A stretch of 64,000 nucleotides of DNA from Serpentinicella alkaliphila. GTDB taxonomy: Bacteria; Bacillota; Clostridia; Peptostreptococcales; Natronincolaceae. The translations under genes were made by a program, and so were the position numbers. Shown here in pieces: positions 7,359-42,512 of the stretch (position 1 is its first letter; each line of letters opens with the position of its first letter). The stretch covers positions 139,001 through 203,000 of the forward strand of contig NZ_CP058648.1 in NCBI RefSeq assembly GCF_018141405.1. The letters are read 5' to 3'. The notes beneath the pieces were generated by a model. It made no database searches and was not told where the DNA came from. It saw nothing but the letters and a program-made list of their open reading frames with translations.

Positions 7359-9323
7359 TTACTTTATTTTTCTCAACAAATAAAGTAAATAAGGTGCTCC
7401 TATTAAAGCCACTACCAAACCTGATGGAATTTCCTTCGGTGCTATTATCACTCTACCAATAAAGTCAGCTAAGCTAAGTAACAATCCTCCTAACATCATA
7501 CTTACTATCATTAATGGAAAGTGGAAGTAACCGACTAATCTCCTGGCAATGTGAGGTGCCAGTAGTCCAATAAAACCAATAGTACCTACAATAGAGACAG
7601 CAGATGCACTCAATACTACTCCAATAATTAATGACCAAGCACGAGTATGTGATACATTCAAACCATGACTAGTAGCAATTTCATCTCCAAAGGCTAATGT
7701 ATTAAGGTGGCGAGTAAAGTAAATAGCTACTGGTACTAGAAGTATAAATAAAATTGATGCAAGATACAAGTCATTCCACCCTTTGGCATAAGTACTTCCA
7801 GATAACCATACAAGAGCGGCAGCTACAACCAACCTGGATTTCACCACTAATATCTGAATGATTGCAGACCCAAAAGCTGAAACTGAAATCCCAATTAATG
7901 CCAGTAAAATTGGTTGAAATCCAGTTTTCCATGAAGTAAGAAAAATAATAAGCATAGCTATTATAGCCCCTAACATAGCACCTATAGGCATCCAGGTTAC
8001 TGGTATCGATGGTAAAATTACTAGAAAAATCATCGCTCCGGCTCCTGACATTGAAGTAATTCCTAAAATACTTGAATCTGCTAAAGGATTTCGTAATACT
8101 CCTTGCAATAAAACACCACTTATTGCTAACATTGCTCCAATGATAAAAGTAATGAGAACTCGAGGTATACGGAAATTCCAAATAATCATTGATGTCCATT
8201 GAGATACAGGTGTCCAGGTTGTTCCGTTATATGAAAATGATATATACATAGCACCTATAATTAAAGATATGATAACAGGGACAAGCCACCTAAGAGAAAT
8301 AGGCTTTTTAGTCCCCCCTAAACTTCTATCCCCTCGCTTTTGTGTTTTTGCTGTGCGATATGCTAGATACATCAACCACGGTCCACCAATTAAAGCTGTC
8401 ATCGCTCCTACGGGAATCTCCTGAGTCGGTTGAATAAAGCGTGCTATTACATCCGCAGAAATCAACAAAACACTCCCCCATAGAAACGAATGGCTTAATA
8501 ATTTCCTATGGCCTTTAATTCCTATTAGTCTAACAATATGTGGTGCCATTAATCCAATGAATCCTATAGCCCCTACAACACTTACAGTGATGGCCGATAA
8601 AATGATTGAAAGGGTCCATGCAATCAACTTAACTTTAACAACAGATTGCCCTAATGAGGTTGCTAACTCTTCTCCTAAAGAGAAGGTATCTAATGCCTTT
8701 CCTGACATGATTGATGTTACTAGAGCTATGAAAACCAATGGGAATGCAAACTTAACTCCTGACCAATTAAGTTGTACTAGAGTACCAGAGCCCCATAAAA
8801 ACAAACCACTGGTTTCATTTTCGTACAATAATTGTAACGCCCCAGTTATAGATGAAAATAGTAGTGAAATAATCATTCCTGTTAAAGCAACTCGTACAGG
8901 ATTCAGCTCTCTACCTGCAAGACTTAAAACAAGTAAGGTTGCGAAAACTGCCCCTATTACCGCTACAATAAAAGAGTATTGACCAAGTGCAGTTGGAAAA
9001 AAAACCATAGACACAACAACTGCAAAAAATGCACCGGCATTTATTCCAAGGGTACTGGCAGAGGCAAGCGGGTTATGGGTTAAGGTTTGAAGAATACCAC
9101 CTGCTACTGCTAATGCACCACCAGCTATTATACCTATAGCTAGTCGCGGCAAACGCATACCAAGTACTATATCCTGTACTCTTCCTTCAATCCATACTTC
9201 AGTAAAAAGCTGCTGCACAGAGTATCCTGCTTGACCTTGAGTTAGGTGGACCAAACTAACTATGATTAGTAATAAGAAGCCCCCTGAAAAAGATATAAGG
9301 GACTTCTTACGTAAAGTATCCAT
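7359..9323 (-). CDS. fhuB: Iron-siderophore ABC transporter permease, fused double-domain FhuB type
   Basis: A 654-residue membrane protein made of two tandem FecCD permease domains. The first spans about 1-325 and the second about 345-654. Each ends with the family motif pattern (SVVGAIGFIGLMAPHIVRL and SIVGTIGFIGLLAPHIARR, then IPVGAMTALIGGPWLMYL and IPSGLVVALIGAPYLLYLL). Most Firmicutes use two separate permeases, so the fusion is FhuB-like. It starts 2 nt after the stop of the binding-protein gene. The ATPase gene is divergent across a Fur-box region. Together they import a ferric siderophore or related chelate; the actual ligand cannot be read from sequence. Confidence 0.92.
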   Translation of the reverse strand: MDTLRKKSLISFSGGFLLLIIVSLVHLTQGQAGYSVQQLFTEVWIEGRVQDIVLGMRLPRLAIGIIAGGALAVAGGILQTLTHNPLASASTLGINAGAFFAVVVSMVFFPTALGQYSFIVAVIGAVFATLLVLSLAGRELNPVRVALTGMIISLLFSSITGALQLLYENETSGLFLWGSGTLVQLNWSGVKFAFPLVFIALVTSIMSGKALDTFSLGEELATSLGQSVVKVKLIAWTLSIILSAITVSVVGAIGFIGLMAPHIVRLIGIKGHRKLLSHSFLWGSVLLISADVIARFIQPTQEIPVGAMTALIGGPWLMYLAYRTAKTQKRGDRSLGGTKKPISLRWLVPVIISLIIGAMYISFSYNGTTWTPVSQWTSMIIWNFRIPRVLITFIIGAMLAISGVLLQGVLRNPLADSSILGITSMSGAGAMIFLVILPSIPVTWMPIGAMLGAIIAMLIIFLTSWKTGFQPILLALIGISVSAFGSAIIQILVVKSRLVVAAALVWLSGSTYAKGWNDLYLASILFILLVPVAIYFTRHLNTLAFGDEIATSHGLNVSHTRAWSLIIGVVLSASAVSIVGTIGFIGLLAPHIARRLVGYFHFPLMIVSMMLGGLLLSLADFIGRVIIAPKEIPSGLVVALIGAPYLLYLLRKIK

Positions 9324-9325
9324 GT

Positions 9326-10312
9326 TTAATTAGTTACCAGGATGTTAACAATTCGATCAACTACTACTTTAGCTGATAGCGGTCCACCAAATAGCCAAGC
9401 ATCTCCACCCAATGGGAAAGTACGATTTTCCTTAACGAATTCTAATCCATTCCAAACCTTATTATCCTTTAATTGATTTTCATATATGTTGTCGTTGTCC
9501 TGAACCACATATAGATAATTTGCCTCTTCATATATTGTTAATGCCTCTACGTTCACTGTACTGAATCCATATATTTCTAATACCTCAGAAGTATGCACAT
9601 TATTTAATCCAATTTTTTCAAGAATAACAGATGCAAGAGCATTTGGCGTAAATAAACGAATTTGAGGTGCTTGATTTGCGCTAAAGGCCTGAGTTAATAT
9701 AACATCCTTCGTTGTCAAACTAGCACTATCAATAGCTGCCTTTGCTTCTACATATGTATCCTCTAATTCTGCAAGTACTTGTTCTGCTTCGCTACTCTTT
9801 CCTACTGCCTTTGCAATTTCTCTGAAGGTTGATTCCATCTCATCATACTGATTGAAGTTTTCATCAGTTGGATACGGGTCAAAGAAAACTGTTGGTGCAA
9901 TTGATTCAAGTTGAGATTTAATTGCTTCATGACGGAATTTAATTGCAATTATTAAATCCGGTTGAAGTTCTGCAATTTTTTCTAAACTAGGTTCTTGGCG
10001 AGTTCCTACATCAACAACATTATCATCAAACTTTTCTTCAATTTGAACCCAATTATTATAGTTTTGAATATCTGTAACACCTATAGGTTGTACACCTACA
10101 GCTAACAAATTCTCAGCATAAGTCCATTCTAAAGCAACAACTCTTTGAGCAGGTCCTTCTAACTCTACATCTCCTAACACACCAGCTATAGTGATTGCTT
10201 CAGCAACCTCTGAGCCGCCTTTAGTTCCATTGGCTGTATCTGTCGGTTGTGAGCAAGCTACTAGTCCAAGTGCTAGCATAAAAATACATAAAATAGCGAT
10301 TAATTTTTTCAT
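9326..10312 (-). CDS. Iron-siderophore ABC transporter substrate-binding lipoprotein
   Basis: A 328-residue lipoprotein with a lipobox at about residues 17-20 (LVAC, Cys20 lipidated) and a low-complexity linker. It then has a class III (FecB/FhuD-type) binding fold, shown by RVVALEWTYAENLLAVGVQPIGV, the KIAELQPDLII motif and the C-terminal GGPLSAKVVVDRI helix. FhuD/YfiY-like proteins with VALEW and PxGV motifs bind citrate- or hydroxamate-type ferric chelates. It leads the fhuB-like gene and diverges from the ATPase. A Fur-box-like sequence sits 36 nt upstream of its start codon, so iron repression is expected. Confidence 0.92.
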   Translation of the reverse strand: MKKLIAILCIFMLALGLVACSQPTDTANGTKGGSEVAEAITIAGVLGDVELEGPAQRVVALEWTYAENLLAVGVQPIGVTDIQNYNNWVQIEEKFDDNVVDVGTRQEPSLEKIAELQPDLIIAIKFRHEAIKSQLESIAPTVFFDPYPTDENFNQYDEMESTFREIAKAVGKSSEAEQVLAELEDTYVEAKAAIDSASLTTKDVILTQAFSANQAPQIRLFTPNALASVILEKIGLNNVHTSEVLEIYGFSTVNVEALTIYEEANYLYVVQDNDNIYENQLKDNKVWNGLEFVKENRTFPLGGDAWLFGGPLSAKVVVDRIVNILVTN

Positions 10313-10347
10313 AAAACATTGCTCCTCTTTAATATTAATTGTATAAT

Positions 10348-10366
10348 GAAATTAATTATCATTATC
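10348..10366. promoter_or_regulatory. Putative Fur box between iron transporter genes
   Basis: GAAATTAATTATCATTATC matches 15 of 19 positions of the classical Fur consensus. It lies in the divergent region between the binding-protein gene (minus) and the ATPase gene (plus), so one site could control both halves of the transporter. Confidence 0.65.
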
Positions 10367-10445
10367 TTAAATCATTATAGGTTTACATTAATATAATTGC
10401 AAGATATTTTTATAGTTTTAATAAATTTTATTGGAGGAACTTTCG

Positions 10446-11249
10446 ATGAGTAATTCAATTGCCACAAAATCTTTATCACTAGGATACAATGATACTTTGA
10501 TTATAAAAGATTTAAACTTAAAGATTCCCAAAGGAGAAATTACAGTTTTTATTGGTGGAAATGGATGCGGAAAGTCAACACTTTTACGTTCAATTGCCCG
10601 TTTATTGAAGCCAAAGACTGGGGCTGTAATGCTTAACGGAAAGGAAGTTGCCACTTTAGCTTCTAAAGATATAGCAAAAAAGTTAGCCATTTTGCCTCAA
10701 TCACCTACGGCTCCTGAAGGTTTAACCGTTTATCAATTGGTGAAGCAAGGTCGCTATCCTCATCAATCATGGCTAAAGCAATGGACAAAAGAAGATGAAG
10801 AAAAAGTCGAAAATGCACTTTCTGTTACTAAACTATCAAATCTAAGGCACAGATCTATCGATGAACTGTCAGGAGGACAACGCCAACGAGCTTGGATTGC
10901 CATGACCCTAGCACAAAATACCGAGATAATTCTATTAGATGAGCCTACTACATATTTAGATATGACCCACCAAATTGAAATATTAGACTTATTATTTGAA
11001 CTTAATGAAAAAGAGCAACGGACAATTATTATGGTTCTACATGACTTAAATCTGGCCTGTAGGTATTCTCATAATCTTGTCGCCATTAAAGATGGTAGGA
11101 TATATGCACAAGGCAAACCAGAAGAAATTATTAAAAGTGATGTTGTTCGACAGGTATTTAATATGGAGTGTGAGATAACAACTGATCCTTTATTTGGTAC
11201 CCCTTTATGTATTCCTTTTGGAAAAGGAAGAATAGTTAGATCTGCATAA
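10446..11249 (+). CDS. fhuC: Iron-siderophore ABC transporter ATP-binding protein (FepC/FhuC type)
   Basis: A 267-residue ATPase. Walker A is GGNGCGKST, the signature ELSGGQRQRAWIAM, Walker B IILLDEPTTYLD and the switch region VLHDLN. The DEPTTYLDMxHQ sequence is characteristic of the FecE/FhuC group. The ATG at 10446 is chosen over an upstream TTG at 10431 because GGAGG at 10433-10437 is the ribosome site. It is the only plus-strand member of the iron transporter and is separated from the binding-protein gene by a 133-nt region carrying a Fur box. C-terminal residues include a DPLFGTP stretch common in this group. Confidence 0.94.
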   Translation: MSNSIATKSLSLGYNDTLIIKDLNLKIPKGEITVFIGGNGCGKSTLLRSIARLLKPKTGAVMLNGKEVATLASKDIAKKLAILPQSPTAPEGLTVYQLVKQGRYPHQSWLKQWTKEDEEKVENALSVTKLSNLRHRSIDELSGGQRQRAWIAMTLAQNTEIILLDEPTTYLDMTHQIEILDLLFELNEKEQRTIIMVLHDLNLACRYSHNLVAIKDGRIYAQGKPEEIIKSDVVRQVFNMECEITTDPLFGTPLCIPFGKGRIVRSA

Positions 11250-36004: not shown

Positions 36005-37657
36005 TTAGTTTACCTGTTTTAATGAATTCCTTAAATCCTCATCGGCTGTACTAATTGGTGTGATATTAAAAATGTCAACTAAATACTGTAGTACATTAGG
36101 AGATAAAAATGCCGGAAGGCTAGGTCCTATATACATATCTTTTATGCCTAGTGATAGTAGGGCTAGTAAGTCTGCAACCGCCTTTTGTTCATACCAGGAT
36201 AGTACAATTGTAAGAGGTAAAGAATTAACATCTGTTTCAAAAGCATCAGCTAATGTTGTTGCAATCTTAACTGCAGAATACGCATCATTACATTGACCAA
36301 TATCTAATAACCTAGGTAATCCCGCTACTGTCCCAAAATCTAAATTATTAAATCTATATTTACCACAGGCCAGTGTTAAAATCACACAGTCTTGAGGTAT
36401 TTTTTCTGCAAATTCAGTATAATAGTTTCTACCTGGCTTCGCTCCATCACATCCACCAATTAGGAAAAAGTGTCTTAATTTCCCTTCTTTCACCGCCTCT
36501 ACGATAGCTCCTGCCCGCGACAAAGTGGAGTTATGGCCAAAACCTACTAATATTTCCTTTTCCTCTACGTCCTCTTTATATCCTCCTAGCTCTAAAGACT
36601 TATTTATTATTTCACTAAAATCCTTAGTTCCATCTTCCTTAAGATTCACATGCCTTACTCCGTCCCAACCTACAACATTTGTAGTAAATATCCTATCTTT
36701 ATAAGTGTCCCTAGGTTTCATTAAACAATTTGTAGTCATTAATATACATCCTGGTATATTGTCAAACTCCTTTTGTTGATTCTGCCAAGCAGTACCAAAG
36801 TTCCCTACAAGATGTTTATACTTATTAAGTGATGGATATCCATGGGCAGGGAGCATTTCTCCATGAGTATAGATATTTATACCTTTGCCCTCTGTTTGCT
36901 CAAGTAACATTTCTAAATCCCTTAGATCATGACCTGATATTATAATAAATGGCCCTTTTTTTATATTTACATTTACTTTTTGTGGGGATGGATGACTATA
37001 AGTAGTGGTATTTGCATCGTCTAGTGTTTTCATCACTTCTACACTCATCTCTCCAGTTCTCATTGTTATCTTAATCAAATCCTCTACAGTTAAAGCATCA
37101 TTTGTTGTTGCTTCTAACCCTAAGAAGTAGAAATTATCAACTAAATTGCTATTATAATTTATAAATCTTGCCTGATGACCATAGGCACTTATACCCTTTA
37201 GACCAAATAATATGGTGGATCTCAAAGACCTTATATCAGCATCTAAACTTTGATCATACATAATTCCTGCCTTCACGGCATCCCTTAGCATTTCATCCTT
37301 TGTTCCACTTAGGTTATATGTGGCGCACTCTGGATAATGTCCTTCAGGTGCTTGGTCTCTAAGCTTTTGCTTTATTTTTTGCGATTCCTCTAGTAAATTT
37401 AGATGTGATTCAACATCAAAGTTTACATTTGTAAGAGTCGTAAATAGAGAATTTTCTACGAATTCAACAACTTCTTTATCAATTAATTGTTTATTAAAAA
37501 TGAGTTCTTTAGCGTAGCAAGAAATACCCTTTAATTGATAGATTAGTAAATCTTGTAAATTTGCTATTTCTGGAGTTTTACCACATACACCACTTCTAGT
37601 TCAGCCCTTTCCACCAAGTGTTTGCTCACATTGATAACAAAACATTGCGTTTTCCAT
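36005..37657 (-). CDS. hcp: Hybrid cluster protein / hydroxylamine reductase with an in-frame UGA at a cluster-cysteine codon
   Basis: From the ATG at 37657 (AGGAGG site) the frame reads MENAMFCYQCEQTLGGKG-UGA-TRSGVCGK and then runs open for more than 530 codons to 36005, about 550 residues, the normal Hcp length. In Hcp the N-terminal cysteines (here C7, C10, codon 19 and C25) hold a [4Fe-4S] cluster; codon 19, which should be Cys, is TGA at 37603-37601. Hybrid-cluster motifs further on include YTHGEMLPAHGYP, HLVGNFGTAWQNQ, LVGFGHNSTLSRAG and GGCDGAKPGRNYY. Hcp reduces NO or hydroxylamine in anaerobes. The UGA means either a nonsense-mutated gene (a start at 37291 would drop the cluster) or a selenocysteine protein. 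No strong SECIS element is apparent. Confidence 0.85.
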
Positions 37658-37949: not shown

Positions 37950-38936
37950 TTACTTTATATTAACTATTAAATCTTCTATATTAATAGTATTGTCTAACAT
38001 GCCATTAGATTTTAGGAAATTCTGTGTTGTTTTTAATTCTTCAATATCTGATGGTTTTATAGTTGGATCAAAATCATACCATTCATACATCATTTTTACA
38101 TCATCAATAGTCAATCCTGTTTCTTCTGCAGTTATTCTATACGCTTCATCTAAATTATTGTGAATAAATTCTAGACTTTCTTGATGTATTTTAGAAAATC
38201 TCTTGACCAAGTCAGGGTATTTGTTTAAAAACTCGCCTCTAACTGAAACTACAATTGTTCCTTCTACTAATCCTTCGCCAGTTGTAACAGTTTTTGCACC
38301 GGCCTTTATCGCATTTAAGGCAGCTGGCCCAGCTAAAAGGGCTGCATCGATACTACCATTCGTTAATGCTGCTAAAGCACTAGGAATATCCATAGCTATG
38401 TATTCTACCTCATCCTGACTTAAATTATTTACATCTAAGGCAGTTATTAAGAGTTGATGTAAAACAGTCCCTTTTGGACCGCCTACTTTCTTTCCTTTTA
38501 AGTCTGCGGGATTTTTGATTTCATCTGAATTTGTCAAAATCATAAATGCCTTAGGGGCTCTACTGTAAATACTCAATATTTTTAGATCTACTCCATTAGC
38601 CGCTGCTAAGATTACAGAAGTTCCACCAACGGCATTTAGAAAATCTAACTCACCTGCTGCTAATGCTTGAGTTTGATCTGGGCCAGATGTAATTTCTAGT
38701 AGGTTAACTTTAATATTATCTTTATTGAATTCATTATCAAATAATTGTTGATTCTTTTGTATTATCGAAGGTACATTAAGTGGGGCCTTCACGTAAGTTA
38801 AGTTTATTTGATTAACTTGTTCATTATTTTGGGTGGTTGTTTGTTGTTTATTACTACAACCACTTAAAATCAATGATACCATAATACTTGCTAGTATAAT
38901 GCTAAACACTTTTTTATTTTTTCTTATAATATTCAT
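37950..38936 (-). CDS. NitT/TauT-type ABC transporter substrate-binding lipoprotein
   Basis: A 328-residue lipoprotein (signal IILASIMVSLILSGCS with Cys lipidation site) of the NMT1/SsuA fold: GELDFLNAVGGTSVILAAA, NPADLKGKKVGGPKGTVLHQLL, ALTNGSIDAALLAGPAAL and FSKIHQESLEFIHNN. Relatives bind sulfonates, nitrate, thiamine precursors or other small anions, so the ligand is open. Last gene of an operon with permease, ATPase and an H-cluster-like protein, under a Fur-box-like sequence. It is only distantly similar to the three substrate-binding-protein remnants elsewhere in the window. Confidence 0.9.
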   Translation of the reverse strand: MNIIRKNKKVFSIILASIMVSLILSGCSNKQQTTTQNNEQVNQINLTYVKAPLNVPSIIQKNQQLFDNEFNKDNIKVNLLEITSGPDQTQALAAGELDFLNAVGGTSVILAAANGVDLKILSIYSRAPKAFMILTNSDEIKNPADLKGKKVGGPKGTVLHQLLITALDVNNLSQDEVEYIAMDIPSALAALTNGSIDAALLAGPAALNAIKAGAKTVTTGEGLVEGTIVVSVRGEFLNKYPDLVKRFSKIHQESLEFIHNNLDEAYRITAEETGLTIDDVKMMYEWYDFDPTIKPSDIEELKTTQNFLKSNGMLDNTINIEDLIVNIK

Positions 38937-38953: not shown

Positions 38954-39718
38954 TTATAATGTATAAAGACTTTGTGTTTGTTTTCCAGTAATAGCATTAA
39001 GAATTTCCTCCTGTATGTTAATAAATTCTACGCCACTCTGTCTTGGATAAGATAAAGGTACAGAACGCTCCATAACCACCTCCCCTTCATTGAAGACTAT
39101 AACTTTTTCCCCTAAGTAAACTGCTTCCTCCACGTTATGAGTAACAAAAACTATTGTTTTATGTTGTGCAAGAAATATATTAACCATTTCCTCCTGGAGA
39201 TTTTTTCGGGTAAAATAATCTAATGCAGCAAAAGGCTCATCCATTAATATAATATCCGGATTATAACACAAAGTACGCCCAACAGCTGTCCTTTGAGCCA
39301 TCCCACCAGAAATTTGAGATGGATATGCGTCTTTAAATTTCTTCAATCCCATAATGTGCAAATATTTGTCTACGGTTTTTTCAATCTCTAATTTATTCTT
39401 AAGCTTAAACAATGGAAAAGCCATGTTTTCCTTAACCGTTAGCCAAGGAAATAATCTAGACTCTTGAAAAACTATTCCGACTGGCCTTTTTTCGGCCCTA
39501 TTATCGTTATTAGTAAATGTAAATTCTATTTCCCCCGCTGATTGTTTTTCTAGTCCACTCAATAACCTTAGCAGAGTTGTTTTTCCACAACCGCTTTTAC
39601 CAACAATTGTAGTAAAGCTACCATCAAGAATATGTAAATCTATATTTTTTAATGCGTGTATAGTTTCAGCCCCTATTGAGAATTGTTTACTTAAGTTTGA
39701 TAGCTTAATTCCAGCCAT
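38954..39718 (-). CDS. NitT/TauT-type ABC transporter ATP-binding protein
   Basis: A 254-residue ATPase with Walker A GKSGCGKTT, signature QISGGMAQRTAVGRTL, Walker B DIILMDEPFAALD and switch VTHNVEEAV. The DEPFxALDxxTR pattern is diagnostic of the SsuB/TauB/NrtD group. The ATG at 39718 follows GGAAGGTGG and overlaps the permease gene by 14 nt, indicating translational coupling. Pairs with the permease and binding protein on either side. Confidence 0.93.
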   Translation of the reverse strand: MAGIKLSNLSKQFSIGAETIHALKNIDLHILDGSFTTIVGKSGCGKTTLLRLLSGLEKQSAGEIEFTFTNNDNRAEKRPVGIVFQESRLFPWLTVKENMAFPLFKLKNKLEIEKTVDKYLHIMGLKKFKDAYPSQISGGMAQRTAVGRTLCYNPDIILMDEPFAALDYFTRKNLQEEMVNIFLAQHKTIVFVTHNVEEAVYLGEKVIVFNEGEVVMERSVPLSYPRQSGVEFINIQEEILNAITGKQTQSLYTL

Positions 39719-40469
39719 GACTTTTTCCACCTTCCTTTAATAGGGTAAAAGATTCAGTTATTTTAATTACTATAAGGTCTATTAAAGAACCTAATATTCC
39801 GATAGTAAATATTCCAACTAAAACTACATCTGTTCTCGATAATTGCTGAGCATCTAAGATCATATATCCAATACCAGAAGAAGCAGCAACTAGCTCCGCT
39901 CCAATTAAAGCTCTCCAACTATACCCAAGACCTAGCCTTATACCAATAAAAATATATGGTAATGTAGCTGGAAAAATAATTTTACAAAACTTTTCAAAGC
40001 CTGTTAATCCAAAGGAATCCCCTACTTCTAGTAACTTTTTATCACAATTTAAAACACCATTTAATGTGTTTAAGAAAATAGGGAAAAACGAAGCTAGCAC
40101 AATAATAACAATTTTTGATTTTTCTCCTATACCAAACCAGAGTATAAGCATAGGAACAGTAGCAAGTGGTGGTACATGTCTTATAAATTCGAGAGTAGGA
40201 TTAAAATAGTCAATCAGTCTATTTCTCATTCCAAGTGCTATTCCTGAAGGAAATGCTAAACAGAAGGCTATTAGAAAACCTAAAAACACTCTGTTTAAAC
40301 TTGCTAGTATATGTCTAAGTAACATTCCATTTTGTAAAACCTTCATTGCAACTTGCAGTGTTCTTATAGGCGTTGGGATAATATATGGATTCAATACTTG
40401 AAAGTTTGACCCTATAATCCAAAACAAAATCATAATAGCCGGAATGTAAAGCCCCTTAATTTTTTTCAA
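39705..40469 (-). CDS. NitT/TauT-type ABC transporter permease
   Basis: A 254-residue membrane protein with the BPD permease signature of SsuC/TauC proteins: HVPPLATVPMLILWFGIGEKSKIVI, the EAA-like loop DSFGLTGFEKFCKIIFPATLPYIFIG and ALIGAELVAASSGIGYMI. Starts at a TTG (40469) with GAGGTGAGAAGAG in front. Six hydrophobic segments. It lies between the H-cluster-like gene (17 nt upstream) and the ATPase gene (14-nt overlap). Confidence 0.92.
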   Translation of the reverse strand: MKKIKGLYIPAIMILFWIIGSNFQVLNPYIIPTPIRTLQVAMKVLQNGMLLRHILASLNRVFLGFLIAFCLAFPSGIALGMRNRLIDYFNPTLEFIRHVPPLATVPMLILWFGIGEKSKIVIIVLASFFPIFLNTLNGVLNCDKKLLEVGDSFGLTGFEKFCKIIFPATLPYIFIGIRLGLGYSWRALIGAELVAASSGIGYMILDAQQLSRTDVVLVGIFTIGILGSLIDLIVIKITESFTLLKEGGKSHGWN

Positions 40470-40486: not shown

Positions 40487-41128
40487 CTATACACCATCAC
40501 CATTATGGCAACCATCTTTACAAAAAAGCAACTCACAAAGTTCTACTTCTTTACTACATTTTTTTAAAAAAATATTATCAAGTATATCTTCTATCTCCGC
40601 TTCTCCACTTACTTTTTCAATCTTCATATTCAGGCTATCGAAAAAACCAAGGGGAATAGGGGATGCGGATAATTTATTATTTTTTTTGTTATAATCTATC
40701 TGCTTCTTAAATAAATTCCACGTAATAAATTCGATTCTGGGATTACTAAAAACAATGTTTCCACAGTCCACCAGCTGACTACATGGAGTGACAATCGTTA
40801 AAGTACAGTTTTGCTCATTTTCTTTAATATAAATATCATACAGCTCTTTAGCACAGGAGATTAGTATTGGATAAATAGGTGCAATATTATCATTTGCTAG
40901 AGGATATTTGTTTTTTATTAATTCAACTACAGCAGGACACCTAGCGTCTAATACTGGCTTATTTTTTGTGTTCAACACATGTTTCAGATAATCTTCCTGC
41001 ACTTTATCTGCTTGATTACTACAGTAAACAATTCTATAACCTTTATTCTCAATAAACTCTATTACCGAGTTGTATTCCTCTTCAACGATTTTCTCAACGA
41101 CTGGATTAAGCCATGTGTATTTCTGCAA
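40487..41128 (-). CDS. H-cluster-domain-like protein (truncated [FeFe]-hydrogenase large-subunit relative)
   Basis: About 213 residues from a TTG at 41128 (AGAGGAAG site); in-frame ATGs at 41149 and 41164 lack a site. In numbering from 41164, four motifs echo the H-cluster domain of iron-only hydrogenases: LDARCPAVVELI (C76; compare TSCCP), IVTPCSQLV (C128; compare MPC) and CELLFCKDGCHNGDG (C215, C219; compare ACPGGCxNGGG). All four cysteines that would hold the [4Fe-4S] part are kept, but the proton-transfer Cys of TSCCP is Arg and the Lys and Glu of MPCxxKxxE are gone, and the ferredoxin domains are absent. A hydrogenase reaction is therefore unlikely; Fe-S sensing, binding or handling is inferred. 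First gene of a Fur-boxed ABC transporter operon. Confidence 0.7.
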   Translation of the reverse strand: MQKYTWLNPVVEKIVEEEYNSVIEFIENKGYRIVYCSNQADKVQEDYLKHVLNTKNKPVLDARCPAVVELIKNKYPLANDNIAPIYPILISCAKELYDIYIKENEQNCTLTIVTPCSQLVDCGNIVFSNPRIEFITWNLFKKQIDYNKKNNKLSASPIPLGFFDSLNMKIEKVSGEAEIEDILDNIFLKKCSKEVELCELLFCKDGCHNGDGV

Positions 41129-41191
41129 TACTATCTTCCTCTCATACATTAATATACAAAACAAATAAATTACATATCAACAGGGTTAATT

Positions 41192-41210
41192 CGTAATGAT
41201 TATCATTTTC
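41192..41210. promoter_or_regulatory. Putative Fur box of the H-cluster-like/ABC transporter operon
   Basis: CGTAATGATTATCATTTTC matches 15 of 19 positions of the Fur consensus and lies 64 nt upstream of the TTG start, in promoter position. Suggests iron-repressed expression of the whole operon. Confidence 0.6.
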
Positions 41211-41434
41211 AGTAGTACGTTATAATACTAGCATAATTTTAGTATTTATGCTATATATTTAAAAATTTTTTTAATTTATCTAATATACCACAAACATAAA
41301 TTTGCTAAACAAACATAGTAATTTGTTAAGAAAAGGCTTCTGTTGTATATTAATGGATAATTTATTTTAAAGAAAATATTAGTAAAACTTCGATATACTG
41401 CTTTTACTTAATTTCTATCAAAATAAGCTTCTAT

Positions 41435-41453
41435 GATAGAAATTATCATTATA
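41435..41453. promoter_or_regulatory. Second Fur-box-like sequence
   Basis: GATAGAAATTATCATTATA matches 14 of 19 consensus positions, about 225 nt further from the operon. It could be a second operator or a relic tied to the decayed neighbour. Confidence 0.35.
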
Positions 41454-41520
41454 TTAAATAAAATAAAAATAGTAATGTGTCAGTTATGTACATTACTATT
41501 TTTTGCATCTTTATAGCTAT

Positions 41521-42346
41521 TTATTTTATAAAACGCCCTTGCTCAGGTTTTGCAATTTCATTAAAGTGGTTGACCAGCAAATCTAAATGACGTGTTAGTT
41601 CTTCACCTTTCATTGGTTTTACATGGCTTGGTATTACTAAGGAAGGCTTTAATTTCTTTAGAGTTCAATTGAGAATTCTGCTGAATTCCAATCTGTAGTT
41701 AAGTACTTTGGAGGCCCACTTATCTGTTCTCTATGCAGTATAACCGATAATAGAGACTCCTGTTTTGTGGTTGTAAAAGCATCTACTACAATAAGAACAC
41801 CATCTTTCTCACGGAATAAAGAAATATGCCCTACAGTATGCCCAGGTGTGTGCACCCATTTCCAACCTGGCATCCCCGGAATACTGCCATCATCTGGTAG
41901 AGGTACCGCTTGGAAACCAATATCTATACTCCTATGTGGGAAGGTTGGAGATAACTTTGCAACCATGCCCTCATCAACAGTAGGGTCTGCTAATGGATAG
42001 TCTCTCTTACCTGTAACATATGGCATTTCTAACTTGTGGATATACACTGGAACATCCCATAAAATACAGAGTTTAATAACTGAACCAACATGATCGAAAT
42101 AGCCATGGGTAAGAATAATTGCTTGAGGTCGACTATTTTTTCCTAATCGTTTTCAGCAGTCTCTATTATAAGATTTGCTGAATTTTCTAGTCCCGTGTCT
42201 ACTAGCACCCATTCACTCTTTCTATCATCTGGCTTTCAGACGAGGCATGCGGTTACAACTGTAAAATCCATAACTAATATATCTGAAGTAACTTCTTCAT
42301 ATGACGAAGTCATAGCCGACAATCCTTCAATAATTTTGTTACCCAT
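41521..42346 (-). pseudogene. Decayed metallo-beta-lactamase-fold hydrolase
   Basis: From an ATG at 42346 with GGGAGG the frame shows MDFTVVTACLV-TGA-KPDD, WVLVDTGLEN, a frameshift near 42150, and a piece with the mutated metal motif ILTHGYFDHVGSV (HxHxDH with the second His replaced by Tyr). It continues with HTPGHTVGHISLF and VDAFTTTKQESL, then another frameshift near 41660 and the tail LVIPSHVKPMKGEEL to a TAA at 41521. At least three lesions plus a lost metal ligand make it a pseudogene. Family members hydrolyse thioesters, lactones and similar substrates; none can be assigned. Confidence 0.8.
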
Positions 42347-42446
42347 TTGAATATCCTCCCTATCTCGTTAAATAGTTTATCTTTAAACAATAGCATTATT
42401 TAGTTTGTCTAAATCTATATTTCCTATGTGCTTCTACTAACTAAAA

Positions 42447-42489
42447 AACACTATAAAACAGGTACTCGCTGCATCTATTTTACAGTGTT
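42447..42489 (-). terminator. Terminator of arsA
   Basis: AACACT-TAAAA (42447-42457) pairs with TTTTA-AGTGTT (42478-42489), followed on the minus strand by TTTTTTAG. About 24 nt after the arsA stop. Confidence 0.65.
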
Positions 42490-42512
42490 CCACTAAATGT
42501 AAGTTTTTCCAT

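Follow-up and report, generated by a model that had tools for sequence, protein, structure and literature searches.

A minimal [FeFe]-hydrogenase-like domain protein encoded with an SsuA/TauA-type importer in Serpentinicella alkaliphila

What does a hydrogenase domain do when it is encoded by itself, with the residues of proton transfer replaced, in front of an ABC importer? The question is raised by a gene on the minus strand of a 64,000-nucleotide stretch of the S. alkaliphila genome (the window). A first-pass annotation had described its product as a short H-cluster-like protein and had proposed a repurposed hydrogenase domain, perhaps a sensor, carrier or assembly factor, tied to the uptake of an iron-linked compound. 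Here we analysed the protein, its family, its operon and the regulation of that operon.

A minimal H-domain that keeps the four cluster cysteines

The open reading frame spans 40487-41164 in full. The TTG codon at 41128 is the likeliest start, because it is preceded by GAGAGGAAGATAGTA, with a Shine-Dalgarno-like GAGGAAG, and because relatives begin at the same place. The gene (40487..41128, minus strand, stop codon included) thus encodes 213 aa, in agreement with the size of about 213 residues given earlier; the cysteines numbered C76, C128, C215 and C219 from 41164 stood as such, and their numbers become C64, C116, C203 and C207. The product was characterised by Pfam and profile searches, an AlphaFold model, structure searches and a family alignment. 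It matched Fe_hyd_lg_C at 37.6 bits (cut-off 22.1), the profile against which the first-pass annotation had suggested it be checked. A phmmer search against the PDB returned one weak match and nothing else. With a five-sequence family profile, the next family matched consisted of ordinary HydA-like proteins (best E 7e-9, most 1e-6 to 1e-4), and hhalign of 18 family members against 12 HydA-like proteins gave a full-length alignment (probability 98.9%, E 2.6e-17) in which all four cysteines aligned with H-cluster cysteines. By homology, the protein belongs to the Fe_hyd_lg_C/HydA superfamily.

AlphaFold2 with the family alignment produced a model with a pLDDT of 88.9 and a pTM of 0.84. The top Foldseek matches were all [FeFe]-hydrogenases (E 3e-6 and up), and VIA-align gave Z scores of 13.9 to CbA5H and about 13 to CpI; model residues 1-213 fell on CpI 223-509, and the alignments covered about 205 residues at 3.4-3.7 Å. 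Because this superposition spans residues 1-213, the whole protein appears to be one compact H-domain. Superposition and alignment together predict that the four cysteines form one site. Hence the hydrogenase profile match is significant and the cysteines come together by fold in a confident model superposed over its full length on real H-domains, the two points on which the earlier proposal had been made to depend. Pfam and the model revealed no DNA-binding, PAS, kinase or other output domain in the 213 aa. The protein starts at the H-domain; a Nar1-type N-terminal four-cysteine site is absent.

CpI residue numbers were assigned through a fixed offset to HydA of the host itself (L006), and the roles of these positions are those generally known for [FeFe]-hydrogenases. 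As judged by hhalign, N8-P9 corresponds to A230-P231, C64 to C300, C116 to C355 and C203/C207 to C499/C503, and R63, Y47, A83 and L119 stand at C299, E279, S319 and K358, respectively; the E282 position falls in a gap. The [4Fe-4S]H-ligating cysteines C64, C116, C203 and C207 were invariant in all 18 members, the proton-donor cysteine (C299) was replaced by arginine (R63) in all 18, and the MPCxxK lysine (K358) was leucine in 17 and phenylalanine in one. The S319 position held Ala, Pro or Gly across the family. C299, E279 and K358 are therefore replaced throughout the family, and the relay formed by C299, E279, E282 and S319 is not kept (R63, Y47, gap, A/P/G). The residues invariant in 18/18 members were N8, P9, Y47, D61, R63, C64, P65, P87, P115, C116, W137, S156, P157, P159, G161, F163, E199, C203, G206, C207, N209, G210 and G212. 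These results bear out three observations of the first-pass annotation, namely the retention of counterparts of the four cluster cysteines and the loss of the TSCCP cysteine and of the MPCxxK lysine.

The description as a repurposed domain stood, with one correction: group C/D hydrogenases lack all proton-relay residues, yet hold an H-cluster with low activity (PMC8163306), so that relay loss alone is not diagnostic. The loss of the K358-position lysine and the HydEFG result are the stronger arguments. Searches for HydE, HydF and HydG gave no match above cut-off in the single-contig host genome, in which masked stretches could hide genes; the three were present in most other carriers examined. 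One masked stretch would not readily hide all three, because hydEF and hydG lie at two separate places in the related genome G403. Since the lysine is lost in 18/18 members and HydEFG were not found in the host, a bound 2Fe subcluster is unlikely; judging from these sequence data, so is a full H-cluster in the host protein. The host also encodes two full HydA proteins (L005 and L006), one with TSCCPAW beside a NuoF-like gene and one with TSCSPGW, in which serine replaces a ligand cysteine. Two further HydA-like proteins were seen in the host, one fused to a methyl-accepting-type domain (L007:1264-3186) and one group D-like, of 412 aa, with a C-terminal Fe-S motif (L008:1234-2472).

In a profile search that covered more than a thousand genomes, family members were rare, occurring in four of 391 genomes in the class (the host included) and 15 of 247 in the order, and were found in all eight genomes of the genus that holds C. 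difficile. The distant members L001-L004 fell individually below the Pfam cut-off and would be missed by single-sequence Pfam searches. In the tree, the family formed a single clade with a long branch (local support 0.735), lying among group C/D-kind HydA and not among group A enzymes, a placement that the long branch makes uncertain; profile scores likewise preferred group C/D-kind over group A HydA. The H-domain proteins are thus a monophyletic, rare clostridial family. Within Clostridioides and a neighbour, dN/dS was 0.10-0.15, indicating purifying selection. We rejected the possibility of a truncated pseudogene on the grounds of open frames and this dN/dS, with one exception: L082:5200-5500 holds a C-terminal remnant of an H-domain protein whose gene is otherwise broken.

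The importer operon and its predicted control by Fur

The H-domain gene is followed on the same strand, after a gap of 17 bp, by genes for an ABC permease (39705..40469; BPD_transp_1, SsuC/TauC-like, conserved beside the H-domain gene), an ABC ATPase (38954..39730; SsuB/TauB-like, at a conserved operon position) and a lipoprotein substrate-binding protein (SBP; 37950..38936). The ATPase and SBP genes overlap or abut their neighbours. The SBP belongs to the SsuA family TIGR01728 (177.2 bits, cut-off 163.5). The same four-gene order was seen in nearly every locus read, in several families (L002-L004, L052, L053, L055, L056, L072, L077-L081 and L083). In L001 the operon ends after the ATPase gene at the contig end; the 7.8-kb contig L054 contains the H-domain gene, and the importer is absent from it. 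The linkage to the importer, for which a neighbourhood analysis had been suggested, therefore recurs across several families; the co-transcription stated earlier is suggested by spacing and conservation.

A search with the SBP profile located the same importer in eight further loci without the H-domain gene, and genome G301 carries one copy with and one copy without it. A replacement gene was sought in these operons and none was there in the eight loci. Because the importer stands without the H-domain gene elsewhere, the H-domain protein probably acts downstream of transport.

Several other genes were observed around the importer. A gene of about 180 aa follows the SBP gene in L083:926-1459, L080:8767-9312, L002:9314-9874 and L003:9027-9560; its product is weakly FmdE-like (E 0.039, in one member only). 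DUF3793-type genes lie next to the operon or importer in L056 and L100 (by eye in L100), with a flavodoxin in L056, and a HypB/UreG-like GTPase gene beside an ABC ATPase gene lies near the importer in two families (L056:921-1628 and L106:1482-2183). In the window, an MBL-fold hydrolase gene just upstream of the operon (41210-42500, minus strand) is split into several frames. The hcp gene, which encodes the hybrid cluster protein, adjoins the operon in the window and in L106. In the window it lies directly downstream (36005-37657, minus strand) and is open except for one in-frame TGA, exactly at the conserved N-terminal cluster cysteine (CYQCEQTLGGKG-TGA-TRSGVCGK). This TGA is a nonsense change, a sequencing error or a selenocysteine codon; a SECIS-like hairpin was sought at it and none was found (z +0.54).

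Upstream of the operon, the candidate Fur box GAAAATGATAATCATTACG (41192..41210, written on the minus strand) matched GATAATGATAATCATTATC at 16/19 positions, one more than the 15/19 counted in the first-pass annotation, and this score was not attained in any of 500 Markov shuffles of the 300 bp upstream. The only other 16/19 site in the window, at 10348, served as a positive control, as it lies between divergent Fe-siderophore ABC genes; these siderophore-type iron ABC genes occupy 7359-11249. Orthologous upstream regions in several families scored 15-17/19 (17/19 in L055, L056 and L083; 16/19 in L053, L079 and L080; 15/19 in L081), and four families had loci with a Fur box ahead of the operon. 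The eight Clostridioides genomes all share a candidate site of 14-15/19 that is 36 bp upstream of the start and closely follows a TTGACA-type promoter. In L001-L004 and L054, no Fur box stood out from the shuffles.

The family includes a C. difficile protein with published expression data. CD630_29920 (CDIF630erm_03276) is encoded by the first gene of the ssu2 operon CD2992-CD2989, which has the same operon order and motif set. A 40-nt SigH promoter has been printed for CD2989 (PMC7438776) and occurs exactly inside the SBP gene of L078. Given the shared operon order and this exact match, the sequence link between CD630_29920 and the H-domain protein as orthologs is firm. The gene was induced in low iron (log2 +2.93 for RNA and +1.07 for protein) and in a fur mutant (log2 +4.38 and +5.83, respectively; PMC6311696). 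The same study annotated the product as 'iron hydrogenase-like' and called the effect of iron indirect for want of a Fur site (PMC6311696); the operon was published as iron- and fur-regulated without a Fur box, in contrast to the 14-15/19 candidate found here. Because this -36 site is conserved, the effect of Fur on the C. difficile operon may be direct. In the host, the operon likewise appears to be under Fur control, as judged from the predicted box and the iron response of the ortholog. Iron regulation was thus upheld by the Fur boxes and by the induction of the ortholog; the protein could no longer be regarded as unknown, since CD630_29920 had already been annotated.

The solved SBPs nearest to the host protein were TauA (84.5 bits), SsuA (76.7) and the X. 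citri alkanesulfonate binder (65.7), and Foldseek agreed. TauA holds the sulfonate by Gln30 and the main-chain NH groups of Gly61, Gly79 and Thr132, and the amine by Glu106 (PMC6906117). In alignments at low identity (22-23%), Gln30 was replaced by Ala, Ser or Leu in the SBP family and Glu106 by Phe131, both glycines were kept, and Gly-Thr occupied the third site. Because the glycines and Gly-Thr are kept and Gln30 and Glu106 are replaced, a small anion other than taurine is the probable substrate.

Possible functions of the H-domain protein

We regard the structural and regulatory part of this account as highly probable, that is, the H-domain fold, the four cysteines, the relay loss, the operon, the Fur sites and the induction of the ortholog in low iron. 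For an Fe-S protein, induction by a lack of iron suggests a role in acquisition or assembly, and in our preferred, tentative explanation the product is a [4Fe-4S] protein to which the imported compound is delivered, or on which it acts, when iron is scarce. It would bind one [4Fe-4S] cluster via the four invariant cysteines and would not be a hydrogenase, its diiron pocket being left free or differently occupied. Iron starvation would relieve repression by Fur, and the protein and the SsuA/TauA-type importer would be made together. As the cytosolic partner of the importer, the protein would accept the small iron- or sulfur-linked anion in the emptied pocket next to the cluster, where the invariant R63 stands in place of the catalytic cysteine; cluster electrons could then open the anion, and iron or sulfur would reach the Fe-S pathway. 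The maturases not found in the host genome, the importer copies that lack the H-domain gene and the two loci with hydE and hydF beside the importer (below) also speak for this reading. We infer here the cluster type, the substrate, the redox role and the target pathway. The protein would be an anaerobic counterpart of FhuF, a Fur-controlled Fe-S ferri-siderophore reductase that is likewise a small cytosolic Fe-S protein made in iron starvation; we compare how the two would work and claim no homology, and cluster type and fold are expected to differ. Some observations count against such a reductase or acceptor: the four cysteines would ligate the cluster fully and leave no open iron site, L001-L004 and L054 lack a significant Fur box, and L054 lacks the importer. 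In addition, the closeness of the SBP to sulfonate binders favours sulfur over iron, although it does not keep the TauA ligands Gln30 and Glu106.

A Nar1-like factor for Fe-S or H-cluster assembly, passing a labile cluster or ligand to clients while the importer supplies a building block, seems rather unlikely to us. Nar1, which is homologous to HydA, has the [4Fe-4S]H site but neither the 2Fe subcluster nor hydrogenase activity, and has been proposed to carry clusters (PMC12621388). The rise of the ortholog under iron starvation would suit this role, and so would the maturase genes in two lineages. In L004, hydE (539 bits, cut-off 254.6) and hydF (552.6, cut-off 325.55) share the strand of the H-domain gene and directly precede it; in L104, where the importer lacks an H-domain gene, hydE is 43 bp upstream of the permease gene and hydF faces the SBP gene in convergent orientation. 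Two such hydE-importer adjacencies in about two dozen genomes are above chance (rough estimate 0.002 for two within 5 kb), suggesting that the importer is tied to an iron or H-cluster pathway. However, hydE lies elsewhere, away from the importer, in the other genomes and thus in most family carriers; the Nar1 N-terminal ferredoxin-like site is missing, and a tie to one importer would be unusual for a general carrier. We judge it unlikely, and a little more so, that the protein is an anaerobic desulfonation or sulfur-releasing enzyme, which would cleave an imported organosulfonate without O2 and supply sulfur when iron and sulfur metabolism are co-regulated. In both sequence and structure the SBP most resembles SsuA and TauA, operons of this type usually include a partner enzyme (SsuD/TauD), and the C. 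difficile operon is named ssu2, the ssu operon being co-regulated with sulfur metabolism (PMC6311696). The replacement of the TauA residues Gln30 and Glu106 speaks against this role, as does the apparent control of the operon by iron via Fur in several lineages.

A non-enzymatic role, as an Fe-S sensor or a regulator of the importer, appears improbable. The closest tree relatives of the protein are group C/D-like, putatively sensory HydA proteins, but an output domain is lacking in the 213 aa and Fur already explains the regulation. It is very improbable that the protein is a genuine, if minimal, [FeFe]-hydrogenase or an H2 sensor that holds a complete H-cluster: although group C/D enzymes without C299 carry an H-cluster and most carriers encode HydE and HydF, the K358-position lysine is lost in 18/18 members, ferredoxin-like relay domains are absent and the maturases were not found in the host genome (masked stretches aside). 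It would be similarly far-fetched, in our estimate, for the importer to take up a ready-made H-cluster component, organometallic or iron-sulfur in nature (such as an iron-carbonyl-cyanide synthon released by neighbours), with the minimal H-domain protein as its intracellular receiver; if true, the host, with HydA present and HydEFG not found, could live on an imported precursor. Returning to our preferred reading, the role of the H-domain protein is probably to assist the acquisition of iron or sulfur, and not that of a hydrogenase.

Relation to known systems and significance

Like the H-domains of CpI and CbA5H, the protein has the full-length fold, the four [4Fe-4S] cysteines and an NP loop at the A230-P231 position, and it shares the loss of C299 with group C/D hydrogenases such as TamHydS. 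It differs from [FeFe]-hydrogenases in its length of 213 aa, in the absence of ferredoxin domains, in being about 57 residues shorter between the second and third cysteines, and in having Arg at 299 and lacking K358, E279 and E282. Nar1/IOP1/NARFL, also homologous to HydA, has the [4Fe-4S]H site without a 2Fe subcluster, as proposed here, but is eukaryotic and larger, has a second, N-terminal cluster site and has no importer partner. SsuABC/TauABC with SsuD/TauD resembles the operon in the SBP, permease and ATPase families and in having a cytosolic partner; here that partner is an H-domain protein and not an O2-dependent desulfonase, Fur control is predicted, and the TauA ligand residues are not kept.

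The fold, the annotation of the C. difficile ortholog and its iron induction (PMC6311696) are already known. Literature searches for hydrogenase-like proteins with ABC transporters, or HydE/HydF with transporters, yielded nothing on the H-domain/importer system; a search on ultraminimal archaeal hydrogenases yielded no relevant paper, and a functional study of CD630_29920 was not found. New here are the definition of the family, the candidate Fur site missed in Clostridioides, the importer copies that lack the H-domain gene, and the immediate proximity of hydE/hydF to the importer in two lineages. The family is a bacterial branch of the hydrogenase fold in which the cluster cradle appears to be kept and the chemistry dropped, tied by gene order and predicted Fur control to one importer, and in C. 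difficile the operon is one of those that respond clearly to low iron. The substrate of the importer would show whether a hydrogenase domain has been recruited for iron or for sulfur acquisition, as a bacterial parallel to Nar1.
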